Assembly: GCF_002154725.1 (NCBI RefSeq)
Contig: NZ_MTAW01000145.1
Location: 1-64,000 of the forward strand
DNA length: 64,000 nt
Source of the DNA: Nostoc sp. 106C
Lineage (GTDB): Bacteria; Cyanobacteriota; Cyanobacteriia; Cyanobacteriales; Nostocaceae
Reading direction: 5' to 3'
Shown here: positions 18,582 to 45,723 of the stretch, piece after piece
How the letters are laid out: each line of letters begins with the position of its first letter
Position numbering within the stretch: position 1 is the first letter of the stretch
Translations under genes and position numbers: made by a program
Notes under the pieces: model-generated
What the model was told of the DNA's origin: nothing
The model's input: the letters and a program-made list of their open reading frames with translations, nothing else
Databases searched by the model: none

Positions 18582-20594
18582 ATGGCTGTTGCAACCCAAT
18601 CCCTCGAAGAACTTTCTATTAACTCGATTCGCTTTTTGGCTGTTGATGCCGTAGAAAAAGCAAAATCGGGACACCCAGGGCTGCCGATGGGCGCTGCTCC
18701 TATGGCTTTTGTCGTTTGGGATCGCTTTATGCGGTTTAACCCCAAAAATCCCAAGTGGTTTAACCGCGATCGCTTTATCCTATCTGCCGGTCATGGCTCA
18801 ATGTTGCAGTATGCCCTGCTCTACCTCTATGGTTACGACAGCGTCACCATTGAGGACATCAAGCAATTCCGTCAGTGGGAATCCAAAACCCCCGGACACC
18901 CCGAAAACTTCATGACTGCTGGTGTAGAAGTTACTACCGGTCCACTGGGTCAAGGTATTGCCAATGGAGTTGGTTTCGCAATCGCAGAAGCTCACCTCGC
19001 TGCTAAGTTCAACAAACCCGATGCCAAAATTGTCGACCATTACACCTATGTAATTTTAGGTGATGGTTGCAACATGGAAGGTGTTTCTGGTGAAGCTTGT
19101 TCTTTCGCAGGGCATTTGGGATTAGGCAAACTCATCGCTCTGTACGACGACAACCACATCTCCATTGATGGTTCTACAGATGTAGCATTCACCGAAGATG
19201 TTTCTAAGCGATTTGAAGCATACGGTTGGCACGTCCAACACGTTGAAGATGGTAATACCGATTTGGATGCGATCGCCAAAGCAATTGAAGCAGCCAAAGC
19301 TGTCACCGATAAGCCTTCCTTCATCAAAGTTACAACTACCATCGGTTACGGTTCCCCCAACAAAGCCAACACCGCTGGTGTTCACGGTGCAGCCTTGGGT
19401 ACAGATGAAGTCGCATTAACTCGGAAAAATTTGGGTTGGGAATATGAACCTTTCGTAGTTCCTCAAGACGCACTCAACCACACCCGCAAAGCAGTTGAGC
19501 GTGGCGCTGGCTACGAATCCGACTGGAACAAAGCTTATGCTGAGTACAAAGCTAAGTATCCCCAAGAAGCAGCTGAATTTGAACGTTACATCAGCGGCAA
19601 ATTGCCTGATGGTTGGGATAAGGTACTACCCACCTACACCCCCGAAGACAAAGGACTGCCCACCCGCAAACACTCAGAAACTTGTCTCAACAAACTGGCA
19701 GCAGTTTTACCAGAGTTAATCGGTGGTTCCGCTGACTTAACCCACTCCAACTTGACCGAAATCAAGGGTAAGGGCGACTTCCAAAAAGGACAATACCAAA
19801 ATCCCAACATCCACTATGGAGTACGGGAACATGGTATGGGTGCAATTGTGAATGGTATAGCGTTGCACGGTTCCGGCTTAATTCCCTACGGCGCTACCTT
19901 CCTCATCTTCACAGATTATATGCGGGCACCGATCCGCTTATCTGCTTTGTCCCAAGCCGGTGGCATTTGGGTAATGACTCACGACTCCATTGGACAAGGT
20001 GAAGACGGACCAACCCACCAACCCATAGAAACACTGGCTTCCCTGCGTGCTATTCCTAACCTCACAGTTATTCGCCCCGCAGACGGAACAGAAACTTCCG
20101 GTGCATACAAAGTAGCAATTGAAAGAGCAAAGGCAAATGCTCCTACTTTGTTGGCGTTCACCCGTCAAAATGTCCCCAATTTGGCAGGTACATCAATTGA
20201 AGGTGTAACCAAGGGTGGATACATAGTAGTGGATAGCGACGGTACACCAGATATTATCCTCATTGGTACTGGTTCAGAATTGAGCCTCGCCGTTACCGCT
20301 GCTGAAAAACTCACAGCCGAAGGTAAGAAAGTTCGTGTGGTTTCCTTACCTTCTTGGGATTTATTTGAAGCACAAGGTACAGCTTACAAAGAATCTGTCC
20401 TACCAAAAGCTGTCACCAAGCGTTTAGCTGTAGAAGCTGGTTCTAGTTTCGGCTGGCACAAGTATATCGGAACCGAAGGCGATATTGTCAGCATCGATCG
20501 CTTTGGTGCTTCCGCCCCAGGCAACGTTTGTTTAGAGAAGTTTGGCTTTAGTGTTGATAATGTATTAGCTAAAGCGAAAGCATTGTTGGGTTAA
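18582..20594 (+). CDS. tktA: transketolase (bacterial/plant type)
   Basis: A 670-residue transketolase that moves two-carbon ketol units in the Calvin-Benson and pentose phosphate cycles, using thiamine diphosphate. Recognisable segments: [13 protein letters not shown] (substrate/TPP histidine), the TPP motif starting [22 protein letters not shown], and [12 protein letters not shown] in the pyrimidine-binding domain. Length is typical of the main photosynthetic enzyme. It ends at a strong intrinsic terminator. A second, distinct transketolase lies at 47591-49489. Confidence 0.96.
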
Positions 20595-20627
20595 TAATAA
20601 CAGCATATTCTCTTAATTTTCTTGTGG

Positions 20628-20654
20628 GGTGGGCATCTTGCCCGCCTTTTTTTT
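20628..20654 (+). terminator. intrinsic terminator of tktA
   Basis: GGTGGGCA (20628-20635), a TCT loop and TGCCCGCC (20639-20646, one G-U pair) are followed by eight T residues. It is the clearest Rho-independent terminator in the window, 33 bases after the tktA stop. Confidence 0.9.
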
Positions 20655-20718: not shown

Positions 20719-20994
20719 ATGCAGGAAGTTTCTGGAGACAAAGAAGTTCTTTTGGAGAGAATCTCAAAAATTGTAGAACATTTGATGCAAAAAGATACTA
20801 GCTATCACTATTATTTAGATAAAAATAAAGCTATTAAAATGATATTTAAATACTATTCTGAAAAAGTTTCTATAGAGGAACTAAAGGCTATATCTGATTT
20901 TGAATTAACAGGATGGGTTGAGGGACATATGATGACTCTTCTATTGATTGAAGGAGAAGATGATATAGACTTGAAAGCAACGCCTTATGGTTAA
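20719..20994 (+). CDS. hypothetical protein, 91 aa
   Basis: A 91-residue, mostly helical, charged protein with no recognised domain, signal or membrane segment. Notable are the tract YHYYLDKNKAIKMIFKYY at the centre and an acidic IEGEDDIDLKA tail. AT-rich codon use resembles the following IetAS-like pair more than tktA. It may belong to an accessory insertion starting here, although 160 bases separate it from the ATPase gene. Confidence 0.6.
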   Translation: MQEVSGDKEVLLERISKIVEHLMQKDTSYHYYLDKNKAIKMIFKYYSEKVSIEELKAISDFELTGWVEGHMMTLLLIEGEDDIDLKATPYG

Positions 20995-21153
20995 ATATGC
21001 TAAATTCCTGAGAAGAAAAATGCTTTATGGTTTATATAATTTAATATAATGATTGGGGACAAGGCGATCGCGTTATAATTTGCGATGCACTATATTTATG
21101 TAGTACAATAGTACCAAATTGGTAAAAAATTACTATTTATACTGAGAGGCAGT

Positions 21154-22155
21154 ATGAAAGCAGAGCTTCTCAAAAGATTTTTTAGAGCGATCGCTAGTTC
21201 AGATCAAAAAGCGATTGATAAGCTTACATATCTAGTGATTGAGGAAGAACGGAGTAAGGGACACTCTCTCTTAGCTGACCAGTTAGAAAATATTACTAAA
21301 AAGAGCCAGAAAGATAAGTCTACCAACTCAATCAAACCTCCTTCTTCAGTACCGGAAAACTTACAGGCTTTAACTGAATTACCAACTAGTAAACGATTTA
21401 ATCTTCCCTTGGTAACTATTATACCAAGGGAGAAATTACGCCATCACATGGTGTTGCCTGAAAATATTGAGAAGCGTTTTCGTCGGATTGAACGCGAATA
21501 TGCAGCCAGAGATAGGTTGGCTCATCATGGACTACGTTACAGACAAAAAATTCTTCTTTATGGTCCTCCTGGCTGTGGAAAGACACTGGGAGCAGAACGT
21601 TTAGCTTGGAATACAGGTTTACCACTTCTGAAAGTGCGGTTTGATGCAATGGTGTCGTCTTTTTTAGGCGAAACTGCAAGCAATTTGAGACTTGTTTTTG
21701 AGGATGCATCAAAAAATCCATGTTTATTATTTCTTGATGAATGTGACTCAATTGCTAAATCACGTGAAGACTCTCAGGAAGTAGGAGAAATTAAGCGAGT
21801 AGTAAATACATTTTTGCAAATCTTGGATGAATATCAACCGTCTTCGGGGCTTTTGGTAGCAGCAACAAATCTGAATAAATCTTTAGATACTGCTCTTTGG
21901 AGAAGATTTGATGACTTAATTGCAGTACCCAAACCAGGAGAACAAGAGCTAGAATTTATACTAAAGGAAACACTATCTGCAATTGAAATTGGATCTATCA
22001 ACTGGTCAAGGATAATTGAGCAGATGAAAGGTTTTTCTGCGGCTCAAGCTGTGAGAGTTGCTCAAGATGCAGCTAAACGAGCAATCCTGGAGCGAGAGGA
22101 GCTAGTGATTCAAGAACACTTAGAAGAAGCGATCGCAGAAATTAAAGTTTCCTAA
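21154..22155 (+). CDS. AAA+ ATPase, IetA-like partner of subtilisin protease
   Basis: A 333-residue ATPase. A helical N-terminus (1-85) is followed by an AAA+ core: Walker A GPPGCGKT at 137-144, Walker B LLFLDE at 191-196, sensor-1 ATN and the arginine-finger-like ALWRRFDD. The nearest overall type is the FtsH/spastin-like AAA group seen in IetA. It is followed 28 bases later by a subtilisin-like protease gene. That AAA plus S8 pairing defines the IetAS system, described first as a plasmid incompatibility/exclusion module and later listed among phage-defence systems. Inferred role: energy-dependent sensor or regulator of the protease. GAGAGG precedes the ATG. Confidence 0.85.
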   Translation: MKAELLKRFFRAIASSDQKAIDKLTYLVIEEERSKGHSLLADQLENITKKSQKDKSTNSIKPPSSVPENLQALTELPTSKRFNLPLVTIIPREKLRHHMVLPENIEKRFRRIEREYAARDRLAHHGLRYRQKILLYGPPGCGKTLGAERLAWNTGLPLLKVRFDAMVSSFLGETASNLRLVFEDASKNPCLLFLDECDSIAKSREDSQEVGEIKRVVNTFLQILDEYQPSSGLLVAATNLNKSLDTALWRRFDDLIAVPKPGEQELEFILKETLSAIEIGSINWSRIIEQMKGFSAAQAVRVAQDAAKRAILEREELVIQEHLEEAIAEIKVS

Positions 22156-22183
22156 TATTAAATTTTGCTGTCTGGATAAGTAA

Positions 22184-24811
22184 ATGGTTGAAAGTTCTCA
22201 GGTTTTTCCACATATCCGCCTTAGGCTGACAACAGAAGGAAGTGCTGCATCGCCACCGGGAGGAGGAGGAAAAAAGAATCCCATAACACTCGTTAATCTG
22301 AGTAATCGCCAAGGACATGGAGGTAAACTCAAAAGTTCGGTAGACTCTTTGATATTTGATTGGCAAGTAACTCAAGAAGAAAGAGAGCAAGAAGGTAAGC
22401 CGTCACTTAAATCTCGACGGATTATCTTACAGATTGACCCTGGTTCTTTTAATCCAGATGGTTTAAAAGCATATGGCATTGAATTGATTGCTGAGACAGA
22501 AGATGGATATATTATCGGTGCATCAGCAGATTTAGAACTTAGTGAGCTACAAGAAAAGATAAAAAAATTTATTAATGAAAAGCATGGTGGAAATACAGTA
22601 GCCCAAATATGGGAGATAATAGATGGACAAAAAAAGCCAGAATTAATTCTTTCTCCAAATTTATACACTGAATTGTATGAGAACTGGATACCTATAAAAG
22701 AAGAACAAATATATACTGTTGATGTAGGTGTAGCTTGTGTAGGTACTGAAATAAAACTACCTAATTATCCCAAACGGCAACCTAATGATACTAATGATAG
22801 TTTTGTAAAAAAGGTTAATGATTGGATTCAAAAACGTGAGTTAACAGAGGAAGAGTGGGAAGAAATATCTTGGGAAAGGCAAGATGAATTTGAGGAGCTT
22901 ATTAAATTTTATAAAGGTAATATTATCAAAGGTTTTCAAGATGAAGGGGGTGAGCTTGGCACAGTTCGTTTACCTGATAGTTTCTCTTGTCGAATTCAAA
23001 TTACAGGAAAAGGCTTAAAAGATTTAGTTGAAAATTTTCCTTACATTTTTGAAATTAGTGAGCCAGATCAGTTTTTTGAAATGCTTAATCAGGAAAAATT
23101 ACCTGTTTATAGCACTCCGATTTTTAAACTGGAACCACCAGAGTCTAATGCTCCCAAAGTATGCGTGATAGACAGCGGAATTCAAGAAATGCATTCTTTG
23201 CTAAAGGTAGCAATTGATTCACAAAACTCAACTTGTTGGGTTCCTGGCGAAACTGGTAGAACTCCTGATTATGTAAAAAATGGTGGACATGGAACAAGGG
23301 TAGCTGGTGCATTACTTTATCCACGAAAAATACCTCTTAGTGGTAAAGAAAAAGCTATTTGCTGGATACAAAATGCTAGAGTGCTTGATGCCGATTGCTA
23401 CCTACCTGTTCAAGTATTTCCACCTCAGTTATTGGAAGATATCATAGAGTTTTATTATGATTTAACATCAACCAGAATTTTTAATCACTCTATAACTGGT
23501 CAAGCGCCATGTCTTACTCGATATATGAGTGCATGGGCATCAACTATTGATAATTTAACATGGCAAAAAGATATCCTTGTCATTGTAGCAGCAGGTAATT
23601 TACCTAGAGTTCCCCATTCTAAAAAACCTGTTACAAGATTGTCTATTAGAGAACATTATTCTGCAAATAGGCTATACCCGGATTATCTGCTAGAAGATTC
23701 ATGTAGAATAGCTAACCCTGCACAGAGTTTTCAAGCTTTAACAGTTGGTTCTATTGCTTCAAATTCTTATAATTCACCACCATATTCTTCGATTGCACAA
23801 AAGGATCAACCTTCAGCTTTTTCATGTTCTGGGTTAGGAATTTGGAATACTATTAAGCCAGAAGTAGTTGAGTATGGTGGAGATTTAGTGAAAGATGAAG
23901 GTACACCACCAAATATTACTTCCTCTAAAGATGTTTGTCCCGAATTAGTCCGGTCAACTTTGTATGGTGGCCCGGCCGTTGCTGCTGACAATATTGGGAC
24001 ATCATTTGCAGCACCAAAAGTAAGTCATATTGCTGCACGTCTAGCTGCTGAGTTACCAAGTGAAAGTTGCCTTCTATACCGTGCATTAATAGTACAATCA
24101 GCAAGATGGCCAGAATGGGCAATGGCAGATCATGTAAATAAATTGCACGTTCTTCGTCAAATTGGTTACGGACTTCCCAATGTTGATCGAGCGTTGGGTA
24201 ATTCTCCCAATCGAATCACTTTGATGACAACAGGAGAACGCCGTATTGTAGCTAAACAAGCTCATGTTTATCAAGTCAAACTTCCAGAACAATTACGTTC
24301 TCAAGGGGAATCGCTGGAGATTCTCTTAGAAGTTACTTTGTCATATAAAGCACAACCGCGTCGAACCCGCAGAAATCGCCGAAAATATCTTTCAACTTGG
24401 CTGGACTGGGACTGTAGTAAGAAAGGTGAAGATCCAGAGAGGTTTCTAGAAAGAATTTTAAAAGAGTATGATGCTCCAGAAGATGCTGAAAAGGGGGATA
24501 AAGGTTTCCAATGGACTCTTGGTAAAAGATCAAAAAACCACGGGAAAATTGAGGGTGTTTCTAGAAGTGCAGGAACCCTTCAGAAAGATTGGACAGTTGT
24601 AAATTCATTTGAACTTACAGAAGCATTTTCTATTGCAGTTGTTGGACATGAAGGTTGGAATAACGATCCAGAAGCTAACGTTCCATACTCTCTAGTTGTG
24701 AGCTTTGAAGCTATACAAGCTGATATTCCAATTTATACGCCTTTTGTTGAAGCTCAAGTTGAACTAGAAATTCAGCCATTGGTAGAAATTCAATCAACTG
24801 TAGGTAGCTGA
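22184..24811 (+). CDS. subtilisin-like S8 serine protease, IetS-like
   Basis: An 875-residue protein with an S8 protease core. The triad is D330 (VCVIDSGIQ), H369 (GGHGTRVAG) and S607 (GTSFAAPKVSH), with NHSITG near the oxyanion region. Residues 1-300 are a long N-terminal domain, beginning HIRLRLTTEGSA, with no signal peptide, so the enzyme is probably cytoplasmic, unlike secreted subtilisins. Residues 680-875 form a C-terminal beta-type extension. It is probably translated with the upstream ATPase from one mRNA. Function in IetAS-type systems is exclusion of plasmids or phage; the target proteins are unknown. Confidence 0.87.
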   Translation: MVESSQVFPHIRLRLTTEGSAASPPGGGGKKNPITLVNLSNRQGHGGKLKSSVDSLIFDWQVTQEEREQEGKPSLKSRRIILQIDPGSFNPDGLKAYGIELIAETEDGYIIGASADLELSELQEKIKKFINEKHGGNTVAQIWEIIDGQKKPELILSPNLYTELYENWIPIKEEQIYTVDVGVACVGTEIKLPNYPKRQPNDTNDSFVKKVNDWIQKRELTEEEWEEISWERQDEFEELIKFYKGNIIKGFQDEGGELGTVRLPDSFSCRIQITGKGLKDLVENFPYIFEISEPDQFFEMLNQEKLPVYSTPIFKLEPPESNAPKVCVIDSGIQEMHSLLKVAIDSQNSTCWVPGETGRTPDYVKNGGHGTRVAGALLYPRKIPLSGKEKAICWIQNARVLDADCYLPVQVFPPQLLEDIIEFYYDLTSTRIFNHSITGQAPCLTRYMSAWASTIDNLTWQKDILVIVAAGNLPRVPHSKKPVTRLSIREHYSANRLYPDYLLEDSCRIANPAQSFQALTVGSIASNSYNSPPYSSIAQKDQPSAFSCSGLGIWNTIKPEVVEYGGDLVKDEGTPPNITSSKDVCPELVRSTLYGGPAVAADNIGTSFAAPKVSHIAARLAAELPSESCLLYRALIVQSARWPEWAMADHVNKLHVLRQIGYGLPNVDRALGNSPNRITLMTTGERRIVAKQAHVYQVKLPEQLRSQGESLEILLEVTLSYKAQPRRTRRNRRKYLSTWLDWDCSKKGEDPERFLERILKEYDAPEDAEKGDKGFQWTLGKRSKNHGKIEGVSRSAGTLQKDWTVVNSFELTEAFSIAVVGHEGWNNDPEANVPYSLVVSFEAIQADIPIYTPFVEAQVELEIQPLVEIQSTVGS

Positions 24812-29401: not shown

Positions 29402-29529
29402 TTTGATTTATTGGAATCATAAAGCAAATTGGAAGAGTTGACGAGATTTTATCAAGAATAACAAGAAGTAACCATAAAATAAAAATTTATAGGAATTAAA
29501 TTGGTTATTTATTCTTGAAAGTACTGGCT

Positions 29530-30873
29530 ATGAATATAAAATCCAATCAAAATAATCCATTTTATTTTGGCGGTGCTGTTTCCCCAGATAAGTTTATGGG
29601 ACGCAGATCTGATATTAATGCCGCATTTGATGTAATTTACAATCGGATGTATTTAGCAATTCAAGGCAGTAGTGGGATGGGTAAATCGTCATTGCTACGA
29701 TATATTGCTGCGCCAGAAACTTGGAAAACGAAAAATCTTGATACATCTCAAGTATTTATTATTTTTTTCAATTGTTCGGAAATTTTACCTTCTTTCACCG
29801 CTATTGGCTTTTGGGAAAAGGTATTGAGTTCCTTAAAAAAACAAGTTGAAGATAACGAAGCATTGCAGCTTGCGATTGAGCAAATATTGGCGCAAGGAAC
29901 CTACAGCGTTAATGAGTTACGCTATATGTTAGCTGAAATTGGTAAAGCAAATAAATTCCTACTGCTGTTACTAGATAATTTTGATGTTGCTCTGTATCCC
30001 AATGCTATCTATACCGAAGACGACATGCGCTCATTTTTGAGCAATCTTCGGAATCTAGCCAGTCATGGTCAAGAAAAAGATTATCTGTGTGTGATTCTAA
30101 CTTCCTTAAAGCGTCTATCAGAAATGGGGCCAGAAATCACACCAGGTACATCCCCTTGGAATAATCACTATACTTATCGTTACCTCAAGCCTCTTAAACA
30201 GCAAGAAGTATCAAATTGGCTGCAAAATGTGTCAGCGCAATATTCTCTTCCTTGGTTAATAGATTTGCAAGCAGGAATACAGGAAATTTCTGGAGGTAAT
30301 CCAGCACTGCTACAAAGCGCTGGTTTTTTGCTCTATAGAGCTTGGCGAGATGGAGATATTGCAACAGTAGTGGACTTTGCTAGAGAATTTGAGAAAGTAA
30401 ATCGGCAATACTTTAGTATCGCTTGGAAATTATCAACTGATGACGAAAAAAGTATACTGAAATTTCTTGCTCTGTCTCGCTTGGAAGGTCGTCTAAATCA
30501 CAAACGTAAGTACACTCTAGATGGAGTCGATATTATTCTCAGCCAAAAGGACAGACAGTTACGCGAATTAGAAGAGCGAGGTATTATCCGTTGTTATCTA
30601 GATATAGATGACAGTGAACAAGGAGATTATGTGTTTACCTCATCGATTATGGAATGGTGGGTGATCAAAGAACTAGAAAATAGTCAAAATCAGCCAGATT
30701 TAGCAGAGCGTGAGCTAGTTTTTCTTAATCTTAGTAGTAAGCAGATTGAGCAGATGAAATCTATTATGAAGCAGGTATGGCAGTATAAAGATACGATTCA
30801 ATCTGTGGCTGGATGGATGGGAAAACTGGGAGGTGCTTTTGTGAAAGGAGTTATTGGGCAAAGTCCAGCGTAA
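29530..30873 (+). CDS. STAND-like P-loop NTPase
   Basis: A 447-residue NTPase (an in-frame TTG at 29515 would add five residues). It opens with the NPFYFGG...FMGRRSDI motif typical of STAND-type ATPases, followed by Walker A GSSGMGKSS at 46-54, Walker B LLLLLDNFD and a helical C-terminal half with a winged-helix-like LEGRLNHKRKYTLDGVDIILSQ segment. It ends in a conserved module (LSSKQIEQMKSIMKQVWQYKD) that is also the end of the next protein. No effector domain is recognisable. The next gene starts 28 bases later, so the two are probably an operon. Role unknown; related STAND proteins act in signalling or defence. Confidence 0.75.
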   Translation: MNIKSNQNNPFYFGGAVSPDKFMGRRSDINAAFDVIYNRMYLAIQGSSGMGKSSLLRYIAAPETWKTKNLDTSQVFIIFFNCSEILPSFTAIGFWEKVLSSLKKQVEDNEALQLAIEQILAQGTYSVNELRYMLAEIGKANKFLLLLLDNFDVALYPNAIYTEDDMRSFLSNLRNLASHGQEKDYLCVILTSLKRLSEMGPEITPGTSPWNNHYTYRYLKPLKQQEVSNWLQNVSAQYSLPWLIDLQAGIQEISGGNPALLQSAGFLLYRAWRDGDIATVVDFAREFEKVNRQYFSIAWKLSTDDEKSILKFLALSRLEGRLNHKRKYTLDGVDIILSQKDRQLRELEERGIIRCYLDIDDSEQGDYVFTSSIMEWWVIKELENSQNQPDLAERELVFLNLSSKQIEQMKSIMKQVWQYKDTIQSVAGWMGKLGGAFVKGVIGQSPA

Positions 30874-30901
30874 ACTAGTCAGAAACCAACAGGTAATCTC
30901 T

Positions 30902-33757
30902 ATGACAACAGGTCTAATCAATCCATATATTACTGGTACTCCAATTAACAATAAGAAAAAGTTTTTTGGACGGGATGACCTGTTCCGTTTTATTGAAGAT
31001 AACTTACTTCAAGGTGCATCTGTAATTCTTCTGCATGGTCAACGACGGATTGGTAAATCCTCTGTTTTGGCGCAGATTCCTCACTTTTTGAGTCATTTAA
31101 AACAGTTTATTTTTATACCGTTGTCTCTGGAAGGTCAAAGTCAAAGCTCGTTGGCAGATATCTTACATCATCTAGCAACAGGCATTGTGAGATATCTGAA
31201 TTTACCTGAAGAACAAGTAAAGATCCCAACAAAGCTTACGCTAGAATCAAAACCAACGGTCTTTACTACCGATTTTTTTATTCAAATTTATGAAGCTTTA
31301 GGCGATCGCAAACCAGTTCTACTATTAGATGAATTTGATACAGTTGGCGATCGCAACGATCAAACAACCACTGAGGATTTCTTTCGCCATCTCCAGTCAC
31401 TCATTCTCACCCAACCTACAAGATTTTGTCTAATTCCAGTCGTCGGACGGCGGTTGGACGACTTGGAAACCTTAGTGAGTTTATTTCGCCAAGCACCACG
31501 TAAAGAAGTTGGTTTGCTAGAGAAAAATCATACCGAACGTCTGATTACCAAACCAGCTGAAGGCATTTTAGAATACGACCCCCTAGCAATTGAGCATATT
31601 TGGCTAGTTACCGCAGGACATCCCTATTTTACTCAGGTATTATGCAGTGTGCTATTTGAAAAAGCTCGGGATAAATATGAAGATGAAGTAGCAGACTGGC
31701 AAAAGATTAGTACAGAAGATGTCGATCAGAATATTGATGAAGCAATTGAAAGAGCCGACAACGGTTTAGCATGGTTTCGTCAAGGATTACCGATTGCAGA
31801 ACGGGTAGTATTTGCGGCTATTGCTGAAATGCAAAAACGCTCCCGTCCCGATCCTTGGAAACTACTAACAGACCAAGGTGTAATTGTAACCCATGAGCTA
31901 GAAGAGGCGTTAGAAACCCTAAAAACAGGTGGGTTTATTACAGAGAGAGAGCTTTCTGAATTATCCCGCGATCGCCCTTATTCTTATGCAATTACGGTGG
32001 AATTAGTCCGTTGCTGGTTCATTAAAAGGCACTCTCTACGCACAGAGATTTTAGAATTAGATAAGCTGCATCCAGAGATTATTCCCTTGTATCAAGAAGG
32101 GAAGGAATTACACGAACAAGGGGATATTATTGAAGCAATAAGGTTGTATGAACAAGTTTTACAAGTTAACCCAAACCACTTTGGCGCTTTATCTGGAATG
32201 GCTTCTGCTTGTTTAGAAGATGAGCAATTTAGCCAGGCTGTTGAACTTTATACAAGAGTCTGCAAAGTAGACGATCTGAGTGTACGCTACAGGGAGGCTT
32301 TTGTAAAATCGCTCTTAGGTTATGGGCGCGACCTCAAAGAAAAAGGCGACCTCGCACAAGCTAGAACCCAGTTTGCAAGAGCGCTAGAGTTAGAACCAGA
32401 AAATAGACGCGCACAGCAGCGACTCTGGGAAGTCGAAGCTCAATTAGAGCAAGAACAAGAGCATATTAGCGAAACTTTACAAACCTTACGCAATCCTTTT
32501 TATGTTGGCGCTCCTGTCCCACCAGAGTATTTTGTCGGGCGAAGGTCTGCAATTGCAGTAGCATTCGATCAAATCTACAATCGCGGTCATCTAGCTATCT
32601 GGGGGAATACAGGTATAGGGAAATCTTCATTTCTGCAATTTTTAGCGTCTCCTCAAGTTTGGCAAGAACATGGACTTAATATTGATGAAGCAATTATCGT
32701 TAGCCTGAATTGTTCATTGATCGTTCCTTTTACACCTGATGCTTTTTGGCAAGAATTTTTAAGCCTTCTGCAAGAACAACTCGGTGATGAAAATTTCTTA
32801 CAAACTGATATTGATAAATTTTTAAATTCAGAAGAAGTCACAATTAGAAATATTCGCCAAATACTGCAAAAAACGGGGCAAAGAAATCGGTTTTTGCTAC
32901 TGTTGTTAGACAACTATGAAGATGCTCTTTCTCCTAACAAAAACTATACTGAAGCTGAAATGCAGGTATTCTTAAGTGAGTTTCGCAATCTCGCCATTCA
33001 TAGTAAAGAACGTTATTATTTGTCAACTGTTGTCACCTCTAGGAAACGGCTAACTGAACTTGGACCGGAAGTATATCCGTCGTCATCACCCTGGTATAAC
33101 CATTACTTGTTTCTGAGCCTCCAACCTTTTAATAATAGAGAAATAAGTGAATTGATCAGCCTTATGCCTGCTGAATTGAATCTGCTTCCAGAGTTAAGGC
33201 AGGTCATTCAAGAGATGTGTGGAGGATACCCAGCCTTGCTTCAAAATGCTGGCTATTTGATTTATAACATTTGGCGTAATGGGCAGATACTGAATATTGA
33301 AACCTTTGCACAAGAGTTCTATAAAGCTACTAAACATATCTTCCAAGATTGGTGGTTATCCTTTAATGAAACCGAACAAATATTGTTAATGTTAATTGCT
33401 TTATCTCGTTTACAAGGTCGTCTCAATCAACGACGATACGACTTGAGCGATATTGACATAGTTTTCAGTCAGCAGCAGCGAGCACTTAGTAATCTAGAAG
33501 AGCAGGGCTTTATTAGACGTGCAGAACAACAAGGAAACATTCTTTACCAATTCACCTCATCAATGATGGAATTTTGGGTACTGAAGGAAATTGAAAGTAG
33601 CGATGACGGCGGGCTTGCTCAAAGGCAGAGAGTTGTTCTAAACTTAATGAGCCGGAAGCAGGTAGAGCAAATTCAGTCAGCTTTTAGATGGCTTTGGCAA
33701 AACAAAGATGCCTCTGAATCATTTATGACTTGGATAGGGCGTAAATTAGCAGATTAG
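30902..33757 (+). CDS. double P-loop STAND-like NTPase with central TPRs
   Basis: A 951-residue protein with two NTPase modules. Module 1 has the NPY...FFGRDDL start, Walker A GQRRIGKSS at 46-54 and Walker B VLLLDEFD, and resembles archaeal-type ATPases. A TPR stretch follows at about 395-540. From about 545 module 2, NPFYVGAPVPPEYFVGRRS with Walker A GNTGIGKS at 568-575 and LLLLLDNYED, is a close paralogue of the whole preceding protein, down to the C-terminal MSRKQVEQIQSAFRWLWQNKD. The start at 30902 follows an AGGT; upstream codons overlap the previous gene. The tandem arrangement suggests duplication and fusion. Function unknown. Confidence 0.78.
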   Translation: MTTGLINPYITGTPINNKKKFFGRDDLFRFIEDNLLQGASVILLHGQRRIGKSSVLAQIPHFLSHLKQFIFIPLSLEGQSQSSLADILHHLATGIVRYLNLPEEQVKIPTKLTLESKPTVFTTDFFIQIYEALGDRKPVLLLDEFDTVGDRNDQTTTEDFFRHLQSLILTQPTRFCLIPVVGRRLDDLETLVSLFRQAPRKEVGLLEKNHTERLITKPAEGILEYDPLAIEHIWLVTAGHPYFTQVLCSVLFEKARDKYEDEVADWQKISTEDVDQNIDEAIERADNGLAWFRQGLPIAERVVFAAIAEMQKRSRPDPWKLLTDQGVIVTHELEEALETLKTGGFITERELSELSRDRPYSYAITVELVRCWFIKRHSLRTEILELDKLHPEIIPLYQEGKELHEQGDIIEAIRLYEQVLQVNPNHFGALSGMASACLEDEQFSQAVELYTRVCKVDDLSVRYREAFVKSLLGYGRDLKEKGDLAQARTQFARALELEPENRRAQQRLWEVEAQLEQEQEHISETLQTLRNPFYVGAPVPPEYFVGRRSAIAVAFDQIYNRGHLAIWGNTGIGKSSFLQFLASPQVWQEHGLNIDEAIIVSLNCSLIVPFTPDAFWQEFLSLLQEQLGDENFLQTDIDKFLNSEEVTIRNIRQILQKTGQRNRFLLLLLDNYEDALSPNKNYTEAEMQVFLSEFRNLAIHSKERYYLSTVVTSRKRLTELGPEVYPSSSPWYNHYLFLSLQPFNNREISELISLMPAELNLLPELRQVIQEMCGGYPALLQNAGYLIYNIWRNGQILNIETFAQEFYKATKHIFQDWWLSFNETEQILLMLIALSRLQGRLNQRRYDLSDIDIVFSQQQRALSNLEEQGFIRRAEQQGNILYQFTSSMMEFWVLKEIESSDDGGLAQRQRVVLNLMSRKQVEQIQSAFRWLWQNKDASESFMTWIGRKLAD

Positions 33758-37296: not shown

Positions 37297-40128
37297 TTAA
37301 AAATTTGAATTAATTATGTTAGCAAAGTAATTTAATGTTGCTGGATTAGCAGTAATTAATTCTTGCGTTTTGACTTCTTTTTCAGATAAGCGATCGCCTG
37401 AATTTATATTCGTTTCTAAACTCTCTTCCCAAGTCAACTCTTTAATTCCCAGTAATTTAGCGAAAGCATTGGTTGTCGCTGGAAAATTTAATAGAAATTC
37501 TCTAATTTTCAATTCATTATCGCTAAGTGCTGGTGCAGCCTCAACTCGCTTGACTTGTTCTTTATTTTCTGGCTGCGGCTTTGACCACGCAGGAACCCAG
37601 TTATTAAAACCAGGCAATGTATTAGGAAAATTACTAGCTGCTTCTTTGATTAATCCTTGCAAAATTTGGGCATGGGGTCGCAGCTTAAGAATGAGGCTGG
37701 GTAACCAAGGTAATAATATTTTATCGGGAACTGTGGCAAATAATTTACTCAGAAGTTCCACAACAAATTTACTAATTCGGGGTGCAAAAGTCAGAGATAA
37801 GATAAAACCGTTTAAGTATTCGGGGAAAGATTTAATTAACATTTCATTGTTAATCACCTCATCAAAGAATTCCCGAATTTCTTCTAGTTTTCGTAGTGTC
37901 AGCAACCATTCAGTTGTCCACAATAAACCTATTTTGGCGGGGTCGTCTAAACCTTGACTGGATTGTTTGACACCAATTAATAATTGACTGCGATTACAAC
38001 CTAGAGATAATGCCAAACTTTCAAGGGTAAAAATAAAATTCAACATCCCAGCAATTTGTTCAGGCGTTGTTCCTCTATCAGCAAAAGCCTGGGGTAGTAA
38101 TGTGGCGTAATGTCCGTAGCCAGTGGTAACAAAGCGCTCTATCCATTCTGGTAAGCCTGTGGGTGTGGCGCGGTAATAATGTACTAACCGCCGGACTCGC
38201 TCAAATACTTGTGGCGCATCGCTGACACCAGTTTCTTGTTTGAGGAGAGAAATCGCGTGTTCTCCGAGTTCTTGAGTTAATCTCAGACTACGAGCGTATA
38301 AAATGCTATCTTCCGTGGCTTTGAGGACATCGCTGGTTTGAGCTTGGGGAGAGAAAGCTGTCTGCTTGAGTCGCTGTTCGATAACTTGCTCGATGCTCAC
38401 ACCTTCGTAACCGAGCATAATAATATCGCGCTGGTATTTACCGATGCGAATTTCCCAAGATTCTTGAATTGGTTTTGAACCGAGACTGCGATCACCCATA
38501 ATGGGTTTAACAATGCGATCGCTTAACAAATAATACAATCGCCACAGCACATCGGAACATGGTAGAAGTTCCGGTTGCTGTTTAAAATCCATTAAGGCGC
38601 GTTGGTTGGTTTGTGCAAGTAAGTTGACTCCCAATGGTTGCAGCCTATCGTAAACATCTTGGGCTAAGGGAGGTAAAGAAGCATAACCAACCGTACCAAT
38701 GCGATCGCCTCCGAGTAAGATTTGGCAAAGTTGGTAAATATTGCGTTTTTTGGGAGTGCGGTCTTTTTCGAGACAAGTTATGGCTGCATCCTGGAAATCG
38801 TAAGGTGTGGGGTGCATCCGGTTTCGCATCCCAGCTAGCAACATTGAGGTTTGATAAATAGCGATTGAGTCTGCGGTACTAGCTAAATAGGCATTTTTCC
38901 GCGCTAATCCTACAATATCAGCGCACCATTGCAATAATTGTTCCGTATCTGCGGCTGCTAATTCTGGGGGACGAGTTAAAAAGGCTGTGAGGTTGGAGTT
39001 TGTGGCTTTGGCTGCAACTTGACTTTGCTGCTTTTTACTAGCTTTCTCTTCTTTATTTAAAGAAAATCCCTTCAATCCCGTAATCTTGAGATTCTTTTTC
39101 CAATTGGCTTCCGCTAGGGATACTGTACCCGCGGGGTGATGAAATTGGTATTCAATTGCAGCAAAACTAGAAGGAATCAGGCCGTATAACCATTTAGTTT
39201 GGCTACGTTCAGGGATTTCCCAAACATTATTATTAGTAACGCTATATTCTTCTACATCGCTAGCTGAGTGCGCTGCACCACATATATAGATAGCTTCCGA
39301 CGGTGCAATTTTATTCGCCGCCATGTGTTTTTTCATGCAAGTCCACATATAGCGTTCGCGCTGACGGTCGATTTCAATATCGTGGTTGCGGGTTCCTAAG
39401 CGGCGCATCAAGCTACCGATGAGGAACATCACCTGGCGATATGTTTCGTAATCTGCGCCAATAATTGCTGTTTCTACATACTCATCCCACCATTCCGAAA
39501 AGTGGCGAGTATTGGAATTGCGTAGTAAAAAGGTTAAAAATTGGTCAAAGGTGGGAACAAGGCTACCTACTTCCACACCAATCGCCGAACCGTGCATTTT
39601 GGCTTCATCGCTGGCGGGTTCCTCCGATTCTGCCACAGGTTTTTTATCGGGAGGTTCCCACTGGAAGACAAAATCAACCGCTCTATCAACAAATACTAAC
39701 TTAGTTTCCGGGTTTTGGAGTGCAAATGCGATCGCTTGATATTCTGCGGAAGCTTCGGTAATGGGTGCTACCACACTCAAAGGCATGATTTTGGGGGAAA
39801 AACTCTCAGATTCAGCAGCGAAGGCTTGTAAAGCTACGGGTAATTTACAATCGCGCAAATTCTCGACGGTGTTTTGTAAGTCTTCGCACAATTCCAAGTA
39901 GATTACTTTCGGCGGCTTCTCCCTTAACCGTCGTACCATCTGCAAAGCGGAGGATGGTGAATGGTGACACACCGGGAAAATTTCTAGAGGTTCGTTGCTG
40001 GCTTTTTCTACATCTGTCATTAAAGCTATCAGCATTTCGCTTAAAGGTTGAGCATCAGTAGCGAATTTTTCCGCAGCGTTGAGGAGTTGTTCTTGAAGTG
40101 CTTTGAATGCAGTTGGTAAGGTAACCAT
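37297..40128 (-). CDS. DUF5682 family protein (YehM-like), MoxR-vWA cluster
   Basis: A 943-residue protein. The N-terminal 330 residues have the DUF5682 pattern: IFPVCHHSPSSALQMVRRLREKPPKVIYLELCEDL near the start, and later YICGAAHSASDVEEY. This region is reminiscent of TraB/EreA-like folds with conserved His and Glu. The remainder is helical. DUF5682 proteins are encoded with MoxR ATPase, vWA and SWIM proteins, as in the E. coli yehL-M-P-Q cluster; no activity is established. Here two Uma2 genes separate it from the MoxR gene, so co-transcription is uncertain. There is no signal peptide. Confidence 0.8.
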   Translation of the reverse strand: MVTLPTAFKALQEQLLNAAEKFATDAQPLSEMLIALMTDVEKASNEPLEIFPVCHHSPSSALQMVRRLREKPPKVIYLELCEDLQNTVENLRDCKLPVALQAFAAESESFSPKIMPLSVVAPITEASAEYQAIAFALQNPETKLVFVDRAVDFVFQWEPPDKKPVAESEEPASDEAKMHGSAIGVEVGSLVPTFDQFLTFLLRNSNTRHFSEWWDEYVETAIIGADYETYRQVMFLIGSLMRRLGTRNHDIEIDRQRERYMWTCMKKHMAANKIAPSEAIYICGAAHSASDVEEYSVTNNNVWEIPERSQTKWLYGLIPSSFAAIEYQFHHPAGTVSLAEANWKKNLKITGLKGFSLNKEEKASKKQQSQVAAKATNSNLTAFLTRPPELAAADTEQLLQWCADIVGLARKNAYLASTADSIAIYQTSMLLAGMRNRMHPTPYDFQDAAITCLEKDRTPKKRNIYQLCQILLGGDRIGTVGYASLPPLAQDVYDRLQPLGVNLLAQTNQRALMDFKQQPELLPCSDVLWRLYYLLSDRIVKPIMGDRSLGSKPIQESWEIRIGKYQRDIIMLGYEGVSIEQVIEQRLKQTAFSPQAQTSDVLKATEDSILYARSLRLTQELGEHAISLLKQETGVSDAPQVFERVRRLVHYYRATPTGLPEWIERFVTTGYGHYATLLPQAFADRGTTPEQIAGMLNFIFTLESLALSLGCNRSQLLIGVKQSSQGLDDPAKIGLLWTTEWLLTLRKLEEIREFFDEVINNEMLIKSFPEYLNGFILSLTFAPRISKFVVELLSKLFATVPDKILLPWLPSLILKLRPHAQILQGLIKEAASNFPNTLPGFNNWVPAWSKPQPENKEQVKRVEAAPALSDNELKIREFLLNFPATTNAFAKLLGIKELTWEESLETNINSGDRLSEKEVKTQELITANPATLNYFANIINSNF

Positions 40129-40243
40129 AGTTTAGGAGATAGGCGTAAATAAAGTTAACTCGTGGGAGTCGTCATTTGTCATTTGTGCGATATTTTAGAT
40201 TTCTCATAATATAAATACAGCCCATGTCAGAATCGGAGGCTTT

Positions 40244-40786
40244 ATGTCACTGACACTTGAAGATTTAGAGAAAATACAGCAACAGTACCCCGACTATCGG
40301 ATGGAACTAGTTAAGGGTAATATTATTGTCATGAGTCCATCAGGATACGAATCAGATGAAGTTGCTGCTACGATGGTGTCTCAGTTATACAACTGGGTTA
40401 AGCCGCGTAAGCTAGGAAGAATAACAGCTTCTAGTGCTGGTTTTAGATTGCCAAACTCAGATTTGCGTGCATCAGATGCTTCATTTGTTTTAGCCGAACG
40501 TTTGCGTCGCAGTCCCAAATCTTTTGCTCAATTGGCTCCTGATTTAACTGTTGAGGTCAAGTCTCCCAGCGATAATTTAGAGGATATAAGAACTAAGATT
40601 CAAGAATTTCTGAGTTTGGGAACTAAAGTCGGAATTTTGCTTAATCCTGATGAGCAAATTGTGGAAGTTTACAATTTGGGAAAAGAGGTAATTGTACTTA
40701 ACAATGGCGATGTACTAACGGTTCCCGAACTGCTTCCAGGTTGGGAAGTACCAGTTGCAGATTTATGGCCTGTAGAGTTTGATTAA
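40244..40786 (+). CDS. Uma2 family (DUF820) PD-(D/E)XK endonuclease-like protein
   Basis: A 180-residue protein with the restriction-endonuclease-like core: E21 in RMELVKG, then PDLTVEVKSPSD with D100, E104 and K106. The motif set is complete, so it may be catalytically competent. This family is greatly expanded in cyanobacteria, with no settled function, and is often suspected of mobility. It is oriented against the surrounding MoxR cluster, suggesting later insertion. The start follows a GGAGG. Confidence 0.87.
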   Translation: MSLTLEDLEKIQQQYPDYRMELVKGNIIVMSPSGYESDEVAATMVSQLYNWVKPRKLGRITASSAGFRLPNSDLRASDASFVLAERLRRSPKSFAQLAPDLTVEVKSPSDNLEDIRTKIQEFLSLGTKVGILLNPDEQIVEVYNLGKEVIVLNNGDVLTVPELLPGWEVPVADLWPVEFD

Positions 40787-40827
40787 GAAGGCATACACAT
40801 CGTTTATTCAAATTTCTACCTGATTTT

Positions 40828-41490
40828 CTATGATGATTTGGCTAACTGTTCCCTTACCCATTGCCGCACATGACGAATTAAACTTGTTTCACCCATCGTT
40901 AAACTTAACTCCAAAAACTTCATCAACACAACAGCATTAAACATCGGCAACACTAACGACATTTCACGGGGTTGGTAGTCATTATTAACTAAACTCAAAA
41001 TTGTCAAAATCTCACGATCAAAACGCCATACTTCCGGCACACCCAACGCCGCATAAATCCCCATCCGATTCATCGAACTGCTGGTACTATCAACTTCAAT
41101 TGCCAAATCTGGAGGTGGATCAATTGTCAAATCAATTACATCTTTACCGCGCACAGCTAACTCATTTTGAATGTAATAACATTCATCTGGTTCTAAACCC
41201 TTGCGTAAATCTTCTCGTGTCCAAGTTGTAGAACCTAAGCTACGAATTTCAATTCCTATCTCTTCTGTAGTAACTTCGACAAAACGACCAAGTAGTTTCT
41301 TAAAAGTTTCGTGTGGTGGTAGCGGCATCATAATCTCCAAAGTGCCATCATCATAAGTTAGTCGCGTTCCTGGTTGTGACTCCAAATCTCGCACTAAATT
41401 CTGATAGGTATCCCAGTGAATGCCTTGAAGTATGGTGATGTTTGTAGGTAATGATTTTGCCAAAGGTGTATCGGAAGCGGCAATAGTCAT
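40828..41490 (-). CDS. Uma2 family (DUF820) endonuclease-like protein
   Basis: A 220-residue paralogue of a different Uma2 subgroup: YDDGTLEIMMPLPPHE, then PPDLAIEVDSTSSS (D128, E132). The position usually held by the motif lysine is aspartate (D134), as in a common cyanobacterial subgroup. GGAG precedes the ATG. It is in the same direction as the MoxR gene, whose stop lies 83 bases upstream, so it may be read with that operon. Its function in the cluster is unknown and may be accidental. Confidence 0.85.
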   Translation of the reverse strand: MTIAASDTPLAKSLPTNITILQGIHWDTYQNLVRDLESQPGTRLTYDDGTLEIMMPLPPHETFKKLLGRFVEVTTEEIGIEIRSLGSTTWTREDLRKGLEPDECYYIQNELAVRGKDVIDLTIDPPPDLAIEVDSTSSSMNRMGIYAALGVPEVWRFDREILTILSLVNNDYQPREMSLVLPMFNAVVLMKFLELSLTMGETSLIRHVRQWVREQLAKSS

Positions 41491-41572
41491 AGTTTTCTCC
41501 TTTAGCTCTAAATATTCAGTTCTTTGAGATATTCACTCATCTTAACGCGCACCTCTGTTAGAGATTTATTGC

Positions 41573-42736
41573 TTAAAATAACCCCATTGCTTGTTTCCCA
41601 CCTTCGAGAAAGGCTTCCCATTCACCTTTGTTTTCTTTACTACGCTTCTCTACAACTGCGTGCCAAAACTGATTCATCACTGAAATATCTTCCGGTTGAC
41701 GACGCACCAAAGTACCCACCAATGATTTGGCTAATGCACCAGCTTCTAAATTGGTAGCGCCAAAATAACGGCTATGTAAAATCGCATCTTCTAAAACACC
41801 GATTTGTTCTGCTGTGGAAAGCGCCGACTCTAAACGCTGGTCGTCGGAACTGGCGGCTGCACTGGTTTCGCGCAAATCGGCAAAGGTTTGCAACAATACA
41901 TCCAATAGCGTTGGTGGCACATCCACCTCAAAGCCGTGACGGTTCATTAACTCTTTGGTGCGGAAAAGGATAATTTCTTTTTCTTGCTTCTTGTTCGTCA
42001 CCACAGGCATATGTACAAAATTAAACCGCCGCTTCAACGCTGAGGAAAGTTCATTTACACCCCTATCTCGGCTGTTGGCTGTGGCAATTACATTAAACCC
42101 CGGTTGAGCAAAAGCCACATTATCATCTCTAAGTTCAGGAATCGAAATATACTTTTCACTCAGTATTGATATCAGTGCATCTTGCACATCAGAAGTACAG
42201 CGTGTCAATTCCTCAAATCTGCCCATTGCCCCACTGTGCATGGCTGTCATAATTGGTGAGGGAATCAAAGAATCGCGGGATTGACCAGCTGCAATTACCA
42301 TCGCCACGTTCCAAGAATACTTAATTTGGTCTTCTGTAGTTCCCGCCGTTCCTTGAACTACATACGTTGAATTCCCAGAAATCGCCGCCGCTAGTAATTC
42401 TGCTAACCAGCTTTTACCTGTACCAGGGTCGCCAATCAACAATAAACCCCGGTCAGAAGCTAAAGTGACAATAGCACGTTCGGCGATCGCACTATCTCCG
42501 TACCATTTCTGCTCAATTTGGCGGTCAAGTTTTTGCGATGGCGTACTTCCCAACACGAAAGTCCTTACCATTTGCGGCGACAGTCGCCAAGAAAATGGTC
42601 TTGCACCTTTATCAATTGAGGCTAAATATTCCAACTCGTCTGCATATTTCATTTCCGCCGGTTGGCGCAGCATTACAGCATTATCTTTCGTATCGCTACT
42701 TGCACTATTTGTAGTATTACTCTTAGCCCTTGCCAT
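41573..42736 (-). CDS. MoxR-family AAA+ ATPase (YehL-like)
   Basis: A 387-residue AAA+ protein. Walker A GDPGTGKS is at 102-109, sensor-1 ATANSRDRG ends at N221 and following, and arginines R236-R237 follow in LKRRF. The Walker B position reads GRFEELTR (E175-E176) instead of the usual hDEhNR. MoxR ATPases act as chaperones that assemble or activate partners together with a vWA protein, which is encoded next to it. A clear GGAG ribosome site precedes the ATG. It fits the YehL subfamily by neighbourhood and motif. Substrate unknown. Confidence 0.88.
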   Translation of the reverse strand: MARAKSNTTNSASSDTKDNAVMLRQPAEMKYADELEYLASIDKGARPFSWRLSPQMVRTFVLGSTPSQKLDRQIEQKWYGDSAIAERAIVTLASDRGLLLIGDPGTGKSWLAELLAAAISGNSTYVVQGTAGTTEDQIKYSWNVAMVIAAGQSRDSLIPSPIMTAMHSGAMGRFEELTRCTSDVQDALISILSEKYISIPELRDDNVAFAQPGFNVIATANSRDRGVNELSSALKRRFNFVHMPVVTNKKQEKEIILFRTKELMNRHGFEVDVPPTLLDVLLQTFADLRETSAAASSDDQRLESALSTAEQIGVLEDAILHSRYFGATNLEAGALAKSLVGTLVRRQPEDISVMNQFWHAVVEKRSKENKGEWEAFLEGGKQAMGLF

Positions 42737-42767
42737 TTTTATCTCCTAATTATTCTCTGTAATTTTT

Positions 42768-42836
42768 CTCTGCGTTCTCTGCGCCTCTGCGGTTAGAAAA
42801 TAATTTTTGAACCACAGAGACGCAGGGGACACAGAG
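42768..42836. repeat. palindromic repeat inside the MoxR-vWA operon
   Basis: CTCTGCGTTCTCTGCGCCTC and seven more bases (to 42794) form an imperfect 27-base inverted repeat with 42810-42836, which starts AACCACAGAGACGCAGGGG. It is the same style as the element at 14341-14400. It fills most of the 108-base spacer between two genes that must be expressed together, so it may act as an mRNA hairpin. Confidence 0.7.
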
Positions 42837-42844
42837 GTAAGAAG

Positions 42845-44266
42845 TTAATTAACAATTACTTTTTTTAATTCCTGAATTAACTTCTTCGGACTACCAGTTA
42901 AAATCGGCATACCCAACTCCTTCAACTTGTCGCGGAACCATTGATTCACACTGAAATATCCTGAACTTGTCACCGCACCCACGGGGATAAAATGCAATCC
43001 CGACTCCTTCAGCGATTTAATATAGTCAAATAAAACTTGGTCGCTACCACCTTCGTAAAAGTCAGAAATTAACACCATCGCCGTATTTTTTGGTTCTAAA
43101 ATCTTTTGTGCGGCTTCTTGCAATGCAAGGTAAATATGTGTTCCTCCACCTAAGTTAGTCCGCAATAAGACTTCAAATGGGTCATGTACCCAAGCTGTTA
43201 AATCAATTACTTGAGTATCAAACGCTAACAAATGCACTTCCACATTTGGAAGTCCAGCAAAAATCGAAGCGAGGATAGTACATTGCACCATCGCATCAAC
43301 CATTGAACCTGATTGGTCAACAACTACAATCATGCGAGTTGGTGTTTTCTTCTTGGCTGTGTGGTGGTAGTAAAGCCTATCAACAAATAATCTTTGTTCT
43401 TCTGGGTTCCAGTTAGTGAGATTCTTCCATATCGTTCGTTTTAAATCTAAGTTGCGAAATATCCGTTTCGGCGGTACTGAATAATCAATTTTGCCCGCCA
43501 CAGCTTGCGCTACTTGTAACCGCAGCACTTGGGCGAGTTCGTCTACATACTCCTGAATCAACCGTTTGGCGTTTTTCAGCGCATTTCCTGACAAATTCGC
43601 TTTTTCGCGTAAAAGCTGTTCTACCAAAGCCATTGATGGCGTAAGTTGACTAGCTAACCTGTCATCTTTAAGAACTTCGTGTAAAGCCATGCGATGAATT
43701 AATTCACCTTCCAAAGCTTTGAGAGTGGCGCGGAGTTGTTCTTCTGTGACGGTGAAACCACCACCAGTACCAGAACCCGCACCCATACCGCCACCGTTAC
43801 CACTACCTTGATTTTGATTACCTGGATTTTTCCCGATACTCGGCCCGTTCCCACGTAAACTTCCCGGTTGACAGCCCAAGGCTTTTTCTAAAAATCCGAC
43901 ATCTTTCAGCCATTGGGCGTATTGTTGGGCGGTGACAACTCCTGTTTGGGTGTTGGGACCGAAAGAATTTAGCAGTAATTTGGAGAAAACTAGGGCGCGG
44001 CGCAGGGTGGCGGTTTCTGCTTCGGTGGCTGCGTCGTCTTGGGGAATAATTGGATTATTAAAATCTGCTTCTAATTCTGGGTAGCGGTGCAGTAAGTGTT
44101 CGATGCTGATATTAGGGTCGAGGATTAATTGCGGTAAATTTAACTCGCCGACAACTTCAGTCGCCATGTTTTCAAAATTTGCTCCCTGTTCGCTGAAGCC
44201 AAACATACTAGTTAGCAAGCGCCAGTATACAACTTGACGGCGTTGGGCAATTTGTTCTGTATCCAT
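42845..44266 (-). CDS. vWA domain protein (YehP-like)
   Basis: A protein of 473 residues from the ATG at 44266, which follows GAGG by eight bases. The vWA domain occupies the C-terminal third, with MIDAS residues DQSGSM at 317-322, a downstream LGGGTH threonine and ISDFYEGG aspartate. The N-terminal part is helical, with a glycine-rich linker (about 150-175) between. In MoxR-vWA pairs the vWA protein is the partner or substrate adaptor of the ATPase. It is the third gene of the minus-strand cluster, ten bases from the preceding gene. Confidence 0.88.
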   Translation of the reverse strand: MDTEQIAQRRQVVYWRLLTSMFGFSEQGANFENMATEVVGELNLPQLILDPNISIEHLLHRYPELEADFNNPIIPQDDAATEAETATLRRALVFSKLLLNSFGPNTQTGVVTAQQYAQWLKDVGFLEKALGCQPGSLRGNGPSIGKNPGNQNQGSGNGGGMGAGSGTGGGFTVTEEQLRATLKALEGELIHRMALHEVLKDDRLASQLTPSMALVEQLLREKANLSGNALKNAKRLIQEYVDELAQVLRLQVAQAVAGKIDYSVPPKRIFRNLDLKRTIWKNLTNWNPEEQRLFVDRLYYHHTAKKKTPTRMIVVVDQSGSMVDAMVQCTILASIFAGLPNVEVHLLAFDTQVIDLTAWVHDPFEVLLRTNLGGGTHIYLALQEAAQKILEPKNTAMVLISDFYEGGSDQVLFDYIKSLKESGLHFIPVGAVTSSGYFSVNQWFRDKLKELGMPILTGSPKKLIQELKKVIVN

Positions 44267-44276
44267 GATATTTTCC

Positions 44277-45662: not shown

Positions 45663-45723
45663 GTGATAGCAATCCTAATTTAAATATAGGGACAAGGGGG
45701 CAGAGGGGCAGGAGAGAAATAAC

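Follow-up and report, generated by a model that had tools for sequence, protein, structure and literature searches.

Here we describe a two-gene locus in a 64,000-nucleotide stretch of DNA from Nostoc sp. 106C (GCF_002154725.1, NZ_MTAW01000145.1, positions 1-64,000, forward strand; hereafter, the window). A reading of this stretch from sequence alone had proposed that an AAA ATPase and a subtilisin-type (S8) protease form a pair resembling IetAS, and our analysis confirmed both open reading frames (ORFs), on one strand and separated by a 28-bp gap. Pairs of the IetAS kind are already known; what is new here is a clade with long proteases, together with the exchange of proteases within it. The pair and its parts are as follows (lengths in amino acids, aa):

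21154..22155, + strand: ietA-like gene, AAA ATPase of 333 aa (PADLOC IetA 1.6e-83; PF00004)
22184..24811, + strand: ietS-like gene, intracellular S8 (subtilisin-type) protease of 875 aa (PADLOC IetS; PF00082)
22184..23125, + strand: IetS N-terminal domain, residues 1-314, the fastest-diverging and locally exchanged part according to profiles of identity and synonymous divergence
23147..24172, + strand: IetS catalytic domain, residues 322-663, with D330, H369, N472, and S607 (Pfam match 322-663)
24173..24808, + strand: IetS C-terminal domain, residues 664-875, with the motif RRTRRNRRKYLSTWLDW at 726-742
21102..21115, + strand: putative operator over a -10 box, AGTACAATAGTACC, an inverted repeat AGTAC-N4-GTACT with one mismatch

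The ATPase (IetA) matches Pfam AAA (PF00004, 5.1e-31), and its closest solved structures by profile are p97/Cdc48/VAT (~1e-74). It comprises an N-terminal segment, a linker of low conservation (approximately residues 51-75), and a p97/Cdc48-like AAA core, in which the Walker A motif GPPGCGKT starts at residue 137 and the Walker B motif LDECD spans residues 194-198. A collection scan provided 89 related loci for comparison, i.e., the best 80 of 197 genome loci plus 9 loci in contigs labelled viral. Length filters retained 78 of the 89 for the ATPase alignment and 74 for the protease alignment, to each of which the window was added; the aligned rows were thus chosen for full length, and the invariance counts refer to such members. 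Two further alignments used 48 and 33 of the 74 protease loci, and the set of 41 window ORFs consists of the 44 listed minus ietA, ietS, and transketolase. Residues K143 (Walker A), D195 and E196 (Walker B), R250, and R251 are invariant in 79/79 ATPases, and one further position reads F or Y, followed in most by L or F (58 and 21 of 79) and next by a Gly that never varies. From the AAA family, we take this F/Y-x-Gly position to be the pore loop and R250/R251 to be arginine fingers.

The protease (IetS) matches Pfam Peptidase_S8 (PF00082, 1e-28) over residues 322-663 and no other Pfam family at a threshold of 0.1. D330, H369, S607, and the oxyanion Asn N472 are invariant in all 75 aligned proteases; the intact Walker motifs and D330-H369-S607 triad reported earlier for the window are also found in its relatives. 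The three arginines R726, R727, and R729 of the RRTRRNRRKYLSTWLDW motif are likewise present in 75/75, although the genome loci were fetched with two peptide patterns, one of them YLSTW, which inflates conservation at those two places. The protease, for which the earlier reading had noted the lack of a signal peptide, has no hydrophobic leader, with a highest 19-residue Kyte-Doolittle mean of -0.06 within residues 1-60. Its long N-terminal domain, previously left unassigned, is indeed so: the 314 N-terminal residues of the window protease gave no Pfam match at 0.01 and a best PDB E value of 0.16, while the C-terminal 210 residues reached 0.35 (both searched to E 10) and the protease had no solved relative by profile at 1e-10. 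None of the candidates for a known sequence relative of either terminal region was convincing. Between the window and the locus L065, dN/dS (nonsynonymous to synonymous divergence) is 0.041 for IetA and 0.156 for IetS, indicating purifying selection.

A search with ietA and ietS models, which had been proposed as a check, supported the IetAS-like assignment. Four PADLOC IetA models match the ATPase (best 1.6e-83) and eight IetS models match the protease (best 1.2e-60, over residues 316-842). The NCBIfam models IteA (NF042959) and IteS (NF042956) yielded 235.3 bits with a cut-off of 510 and 114.1 bits with a cut-off of 900, respectively, and the pair is outside these equivalogs by their score cut-offs. 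Across the PADLOC and NCBIfam sets, the best match stretch never begins before protease residue 280.

Comparison with known systems yielded the same picture of a shared architecture with a different protease front. IetA/IetS of the Agrobacterium plasmid pTiC58 (Yamamoto et al. 2009, as cited in the part of PMC5006074 consulted) also consist of an AAA ATPase gene directly followed by an S8 protease gene, with the triad and the Walker motifs kept. The pTiC58 ATPase is 35% identical to that of the window and the protease ~24-26% (25.6% by tblastn, aligned over residues 261-871), whereas the N-terminal third is hardly alignable and the arginine-rich RRTRR motif of the window protease is missing. 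By its published description, SgiA/SgiT (S026/S025) of Salmonella genomic island 1 (SGI1) is an AAA antitoxin and a subtilisin toxin with the ATPase first (PMC5006074, in part), and, unlike the window pair, it is carried by an integrative mobilisable element. Closer relatives occur on Synechocystis and Leptolyngbya plasmids, again unlike the window pair; their proteases are 54-56% identical to the window's over 98-100% of its length, and the ATPase gene lies directly upstream with an 8-bp overlap (three loci read). Because the PADLOC models match, the equivalog scores fall below their cut-offs, and the N-terminal third can barely be aligned, the pair is of the IetAS kind and belongs to a separate clade with a longer, different protease front.

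Within this clade, the two genes differ in their histories. Several relatives have an ATPase 92-95% identical to that of the window and a protease only 58-72% identical. In the ATPase tree, 13 ATPases, including those of L086 and L096, fall on one side of a branch with support 82 (not starred), and an ATPase clade that excludes L086 and L096 was rejected (p 0.0006). In the protease tree, L086 and L096 group with Spirulina proteases (support 100), and keeping the same 13 together was rejected (p 6e-87), the 13-member set having been chosen after the ATPase tree was seen. Moreover, three neighbouring ATPase pairs on the tree (supports 97, 88, and 94) carry different protease types.

The breakpoints could be located in the DNA. 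L072 and L102 are 94% identical up to approximately protease codon 47 and 72% thereafter where alignable; the corresponding values are 91% up to codon 17 and then 74% for L067/L086, and 93% up to codon 13 and then 72% for L070/L096. All left breakpoints in the three pairs are thus within the first 50 protease codons. Codons 826-850 are closer again (84% in L067/L086 and 94% in L070/L096), but this region is conserved in general and the rise is therefore not diagnostic of a right breakpoint. Patches were also found inside the protease gene. Between the window and L093, synonymous differences amount to 0.349 per site over codons 101-430 and 0.152 elsewhere, with codons 141-390 as the best segment (0 of 1000 permutations as extreme), and L071 compared with L091 shows a drop over codons 76-325. 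Given the tree conflict, the DNA breakpoints, and the internal patches, the protease, and above all its front, has been exchanged repeatedly beside a constant ATPase. The N-terminal domain may be a sensor, as the sequence-only reading had suggested, and its rapid divergence and local exchange make this somewhat more likely.

Pairing of the two genes is nearly constant: 86 of the 89 related loci have IetA upstream of IetS and on its strand. The three exceptions are L087, whose protease is N-terminally truncated, and L116 and L124, which end at a contig edge. To describe decay, we used an order-level draw of 243 genomes, which is separate from the first set of relatives (some species overlap) and in which unusual loci were read individually. 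A close IetA (E < 1e-110) was present at 38 loci, and 25 of these have both genes at full length, as judged from search tables with five loci re-read as ORFs (the window, L055, L056, L170, and L171). A full or nearly full IetA accompanied by a broken, relic, or absent IetS was found at 10 loci (L154, L155, L156, L161-L164, L058, L172, and L168), two of which are interrupted solely around a single point, by a frameshift or a stop that could be a sequencing error; L156 ends 0.8 kb further on. The others are L157, with a truncated IetA and no IetS, one locus at a contig end, and L158, where IetS is intact and two ATPase copies keep the AAA core with the N-terminal part out of frame. The L158 arrangement (G198:C52) is a tandem duplication of the ATPase core in which both copies go out of frame at the linker to the N-terminal segment.

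Beyond these 38 loci, L159 and L160 have a truncated or relic IetS with no IetA found there, and the distant types L165, L166, L169, and L063 also retain the ATPase (L063 comes from a draw of 58 relatives, and distant-type loci were inspected only if they had a short protease match or none). At L165 (G187:C98), the solitary distant-type IetA lies between a gene with an ApeA N-terminal domain plus HEPN and a 1350-aa helicase-like gene. The ratio of lost IetS to altered IetA, 10:1, gives p 0.012 in a sign test and p 0.15 once gene length is considered; including the four distant cases (14:1), the latter becomes p 0.053. This order of decay fits a protease toxin restrained by the ATPase, and it is only suggestive because the protease is 2.6 times longer.

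The pair is patchily distributed. Counting the source genome, 3 of 8 genomes of the genus have it, and the protease match occurred in the same proportion of these; of the 58 relatives, again counting the source genome, 11 gave a match to the protease (fragments included) and 11 a match to the ATPase; and in the 243 genomes of the order, IetA was matched in 56 and IetS in 53. Neither outcome that the earlier reading had named as refuting it was thus observed, since the ietA and ietS models do match and the family is not a universal housekeeping one. Its immediate surroundings in the window contain the following landmarks:

18582..20594, + strand: transketolase, flanking landmark (Pfam)
20626..20648, + strand: terminator-like hairpin 3' of transketolase, between transketolase and the pair (10-bp stem, T tract)
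20719..20994, + strand: 91-aa ORF of the transketolase locus, outside the pair, found without the pair in G002 and G004

Since the terminator-like hairpin separates them, membership of the pair in a transketolase operon was rejected; terminator-like sites numbered 4, with 2.5 expected. The 91-aa ORF had been considered part of an insertion, but it stays beside transketolase in the two genomes without the pair (G002 and G004), and it was rejected as a third component for the same reason. The codons had also been called AT-rich; both genes are indeed below the window in GC content, but only mildly so (39.1% for ietA and 37.8% for ietS versus 40.5%). A search of 18-28 kb of the window for structured RNA near the pair gave no match at the gathering threshold.

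An empty site was found by comparing genomes G003 and G004, whose flanks share 96.5% and 97.7% DNA identity (286 and 2361 bp). Between these flanks, G003 has 3.9 kb with the pair and G004 has 140 bp, and G002 agrees with G004. On the left, the junction lies within the final codons of the 91-aa ORF. The G003 contig breaks between transketolase and this ORF, where the link was inferred. No target duplication was seen by eye at the G003/G004 junctions, and no transposase or integrase was present among the ORFs of at least 90 aa in the G003 insert. The empty site of L053 and L051, bounded by the 91-aa ORF and the gene that follows, contains a short imperfect inverted repeat (GTGTGTTAGGCGCT ... AGCGCCTAACGCAC) instead of the pair, possibly a small repeat element.

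The proposed position between tktA and aarF holds for this genome and Nostoc sp. T09, whereas the two genes are separated, or lie on different contigs, in G001-G005; the lasting landmark is therefore the 3' side of tkt. Among the loci searched, aarF is joined only in this genome and in Nostoc sp. T09, and a simple insertion at a tktA/aarF boundary was rejected on this ground. The aarF right flank arose by local rearrangement in these two genomes. Transketolase is directly upstream in 14 of 45 cyanobacterial loci (those with the ATPase present and at least 2.2 kb upstream), ranging from Nostoc to Lyngbya and Trichodesmium. When the tkt label (15 rows, the window among them) is mapped onto the tree of ATPases, it requires 8 changes versus a shuffled mean of 13.0 (0 of 500 as low), a clustering that can come from close relatives alone. 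We read the pair as an old resident at transketolase in filamentous cyanobacteria that was often lost and at times moved; a preferred insertion site 3' of tkt is an alternative explanation for the placement.

Plasmid relatives were found in 434 records with any match, 12 of them with at least 80% coverage. Carriage by phages was rejected: a search of 50,697 phage records gave 4 matches, all weak and partial, besides which there are the 9 loci in contigs labelled viral. One plasmid locus, L042 of Planctomyces sp. SH-PL62, has an IetS of the long-protease clade with a shortened N-terminus after repA/parA/parB genes. In two Leptolyngbya plasmids, the pair is flanked by genes for HmaB on one side (7.6e-70 and 3.5e-71) and HmaC on the other (3.6e-97 and 2.6e-17, the latter a partial gene).

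Upstream of the pair, the AGTAC-N4-GTACT palindrome begins 52 bp ahead of ietA and covers a -10-like hexamer; the -10 match comes from a promoter scan whose number of promoter-like sites is at chance level. Of 51 cyanobacterial upstream regions, 25 keep at least 8 of the 10 palindrome positions, including regions not linked to transketolase (200 shuffles: mean 3.6, maximum 8), as does 1 of 33 other upstream regions, with the pattern itself drawn from these same, related sequences. The element is perhaps a site of autoregulation, and we regard it as a lead.

Elsewhere in the window, the + strand at 29515-33757 encodes two tandem STAND/NACHT-like NTPases, the second with TPR repeats, and the - strand at 47591-49489 encodes a second, shorter transketolase-like ORF of 632 aa. 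A cluster on the - strand at 37297-46224 comprises a DUF5682 protein (943 aa), a MoxR-like AAA_5 ATPase, a VWA/CoxE protein, and two ORFs without a Pfam match. Clusters of the DUF5682/MoxR/VWA type have been proposed as conflict systems. No PADLOC model matched the DUF5682 protein (threshold 1e-10) or any of the four remaining cluster proteins (threshold 1e-8); two small ORFs within the cluster (40244-41490) match PADLOC PDC-S03 (3.2e-11) and PDC-S17 (4.3e-43).

We consider the pair to be probably a two-gene toxin-antitoxin or defence module of the IetAS type, a view that draws on its sequence and on analogy with SGI1. Among the sequences analysed, it is supported by the PADLOC matches, the anatomy of the locus, the conserved active sites, the near-constant pairing, the patchy presence, the purifying selection, the protease exchange, and the mobile and defence genes that accompany plasmid relatives; the order of decay is suggestive, and the promoter palindrome is a lead. 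In such a module, IetA and IetS would be made from one operon, and IetS, a soluble intracellular subtilisin, would be harmful to the cell when active. IetA, as an ATP-driven AAA unfoldase, would engage IetS and hold it inactive. A phage or competing plasmid would upset this restraint, either because it is sensed by the variable IetS N-terminal domain or because it occupies IetA, and the released IetS would then cut host or invader proteins, such that infection is stopped or the plasmid excluded. The window copy itself may act against phages. A 2025 paper, in the part consulted, terms the IetAS mechanism unknown (PMC11878078), and our literature searches found no mechanism paper for IetAS.

Several observations weigh against this interpretation. 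Apart from the sub-cut-off NCBIfam scores and the weakness of the decay asymmetry after allowing for gene length, in L159 the catalytic and C-terminal portions of IetS remain in frame without IetA, and on the L042 plasmid parB is immediately followed by an 851-aa IetS, while the 12 kb read contains no IetA. Both proteases lack part of the N-terminus, and both loci count against a strict need for IetA. The window pair adjoins housekeeping genes, and the other PADLOC matches traced in the window point to RecN and, at 40.2-41.5 kb, to two small candidate genes. Finally, the SGI1 operon, when expressed from its own promoter, caused no post-segregational killing of plasmid-free cells, according to the portion of PMC5006074 consulted.

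The main rival holds that IetA is an unfoldase that feeds IetS, in analogy to Clp or FtsH, and that the two degrade phage or plasmid proteins with the host unharmed. IetA does carry p97-type unfoldase residues, including the pore-loop position, its pairing with IetS is nearly constant, and it is far better conserved than IetS, as would befit a machine with changing clients; tripeptidyl peptidase II, a subtilase, also forms a giant complex. Nevertheless, we judge this unlikely. The SGI1 protease S025 alone reduced transformants 100- to 1000-fold, and no loss occurred with the ATPase S026 (PMC5006074, in part), which is the opposite of activation; a restrained protease toxin is favoured because the protease is toxic alone and the ATPase cancels this toxicity. 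Moreover, feeding by an unfoldase alone leaves unexplained the more frequent survival of IetA over IetS, itself a weak asymmetry.

Still less likely, in our view, is a maintenance (i.e., addiction or incompatibility) module of mobile DNA that is now on the chromosome and has no phage role. The plasmid relatives are in line with such an origin, in particular that directly after repA/parA/parB, and the SGI1 pair was studied as a stabilisation system (PMC5006074, in part). However, the tkt-linked cyanobacterial group is a chromosomal resident of several families, the G003 insert has no transposase or integrase ORF, and repeated loss implies that loss is tolerated. A housekeeping intracellular protease with a dedicated chaperone and no conflict role, which purifying selection and the conserved place after transketolase in several families might suggest, is highly improbable, as most genomes of the order have no match and the pair is often decayed, exchanged by recombination, and plasmid-borne in places.

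Returning to a restrained protease toxin, we lean towards a polymorphic immune locus with a constant ATPase, in which at least two old, interchangeable protease lineages would be swapped at the ietA/ietS boundary and the N-terminal domain would be exchanged separately too. If this is true, IetA would act as a general restraint, able to cope with 40% divergence in its partner, whereas arms-race selection would fall on IetS, as a sensor or as a target of phage inhibitors. The exchange of IetS also opens a direct test of toxicity control versus phage specificity behind one IetA. The long-protease branch occurs in many filamentous cyanobacteria and extends to other phyla, and present models cover only part of it.

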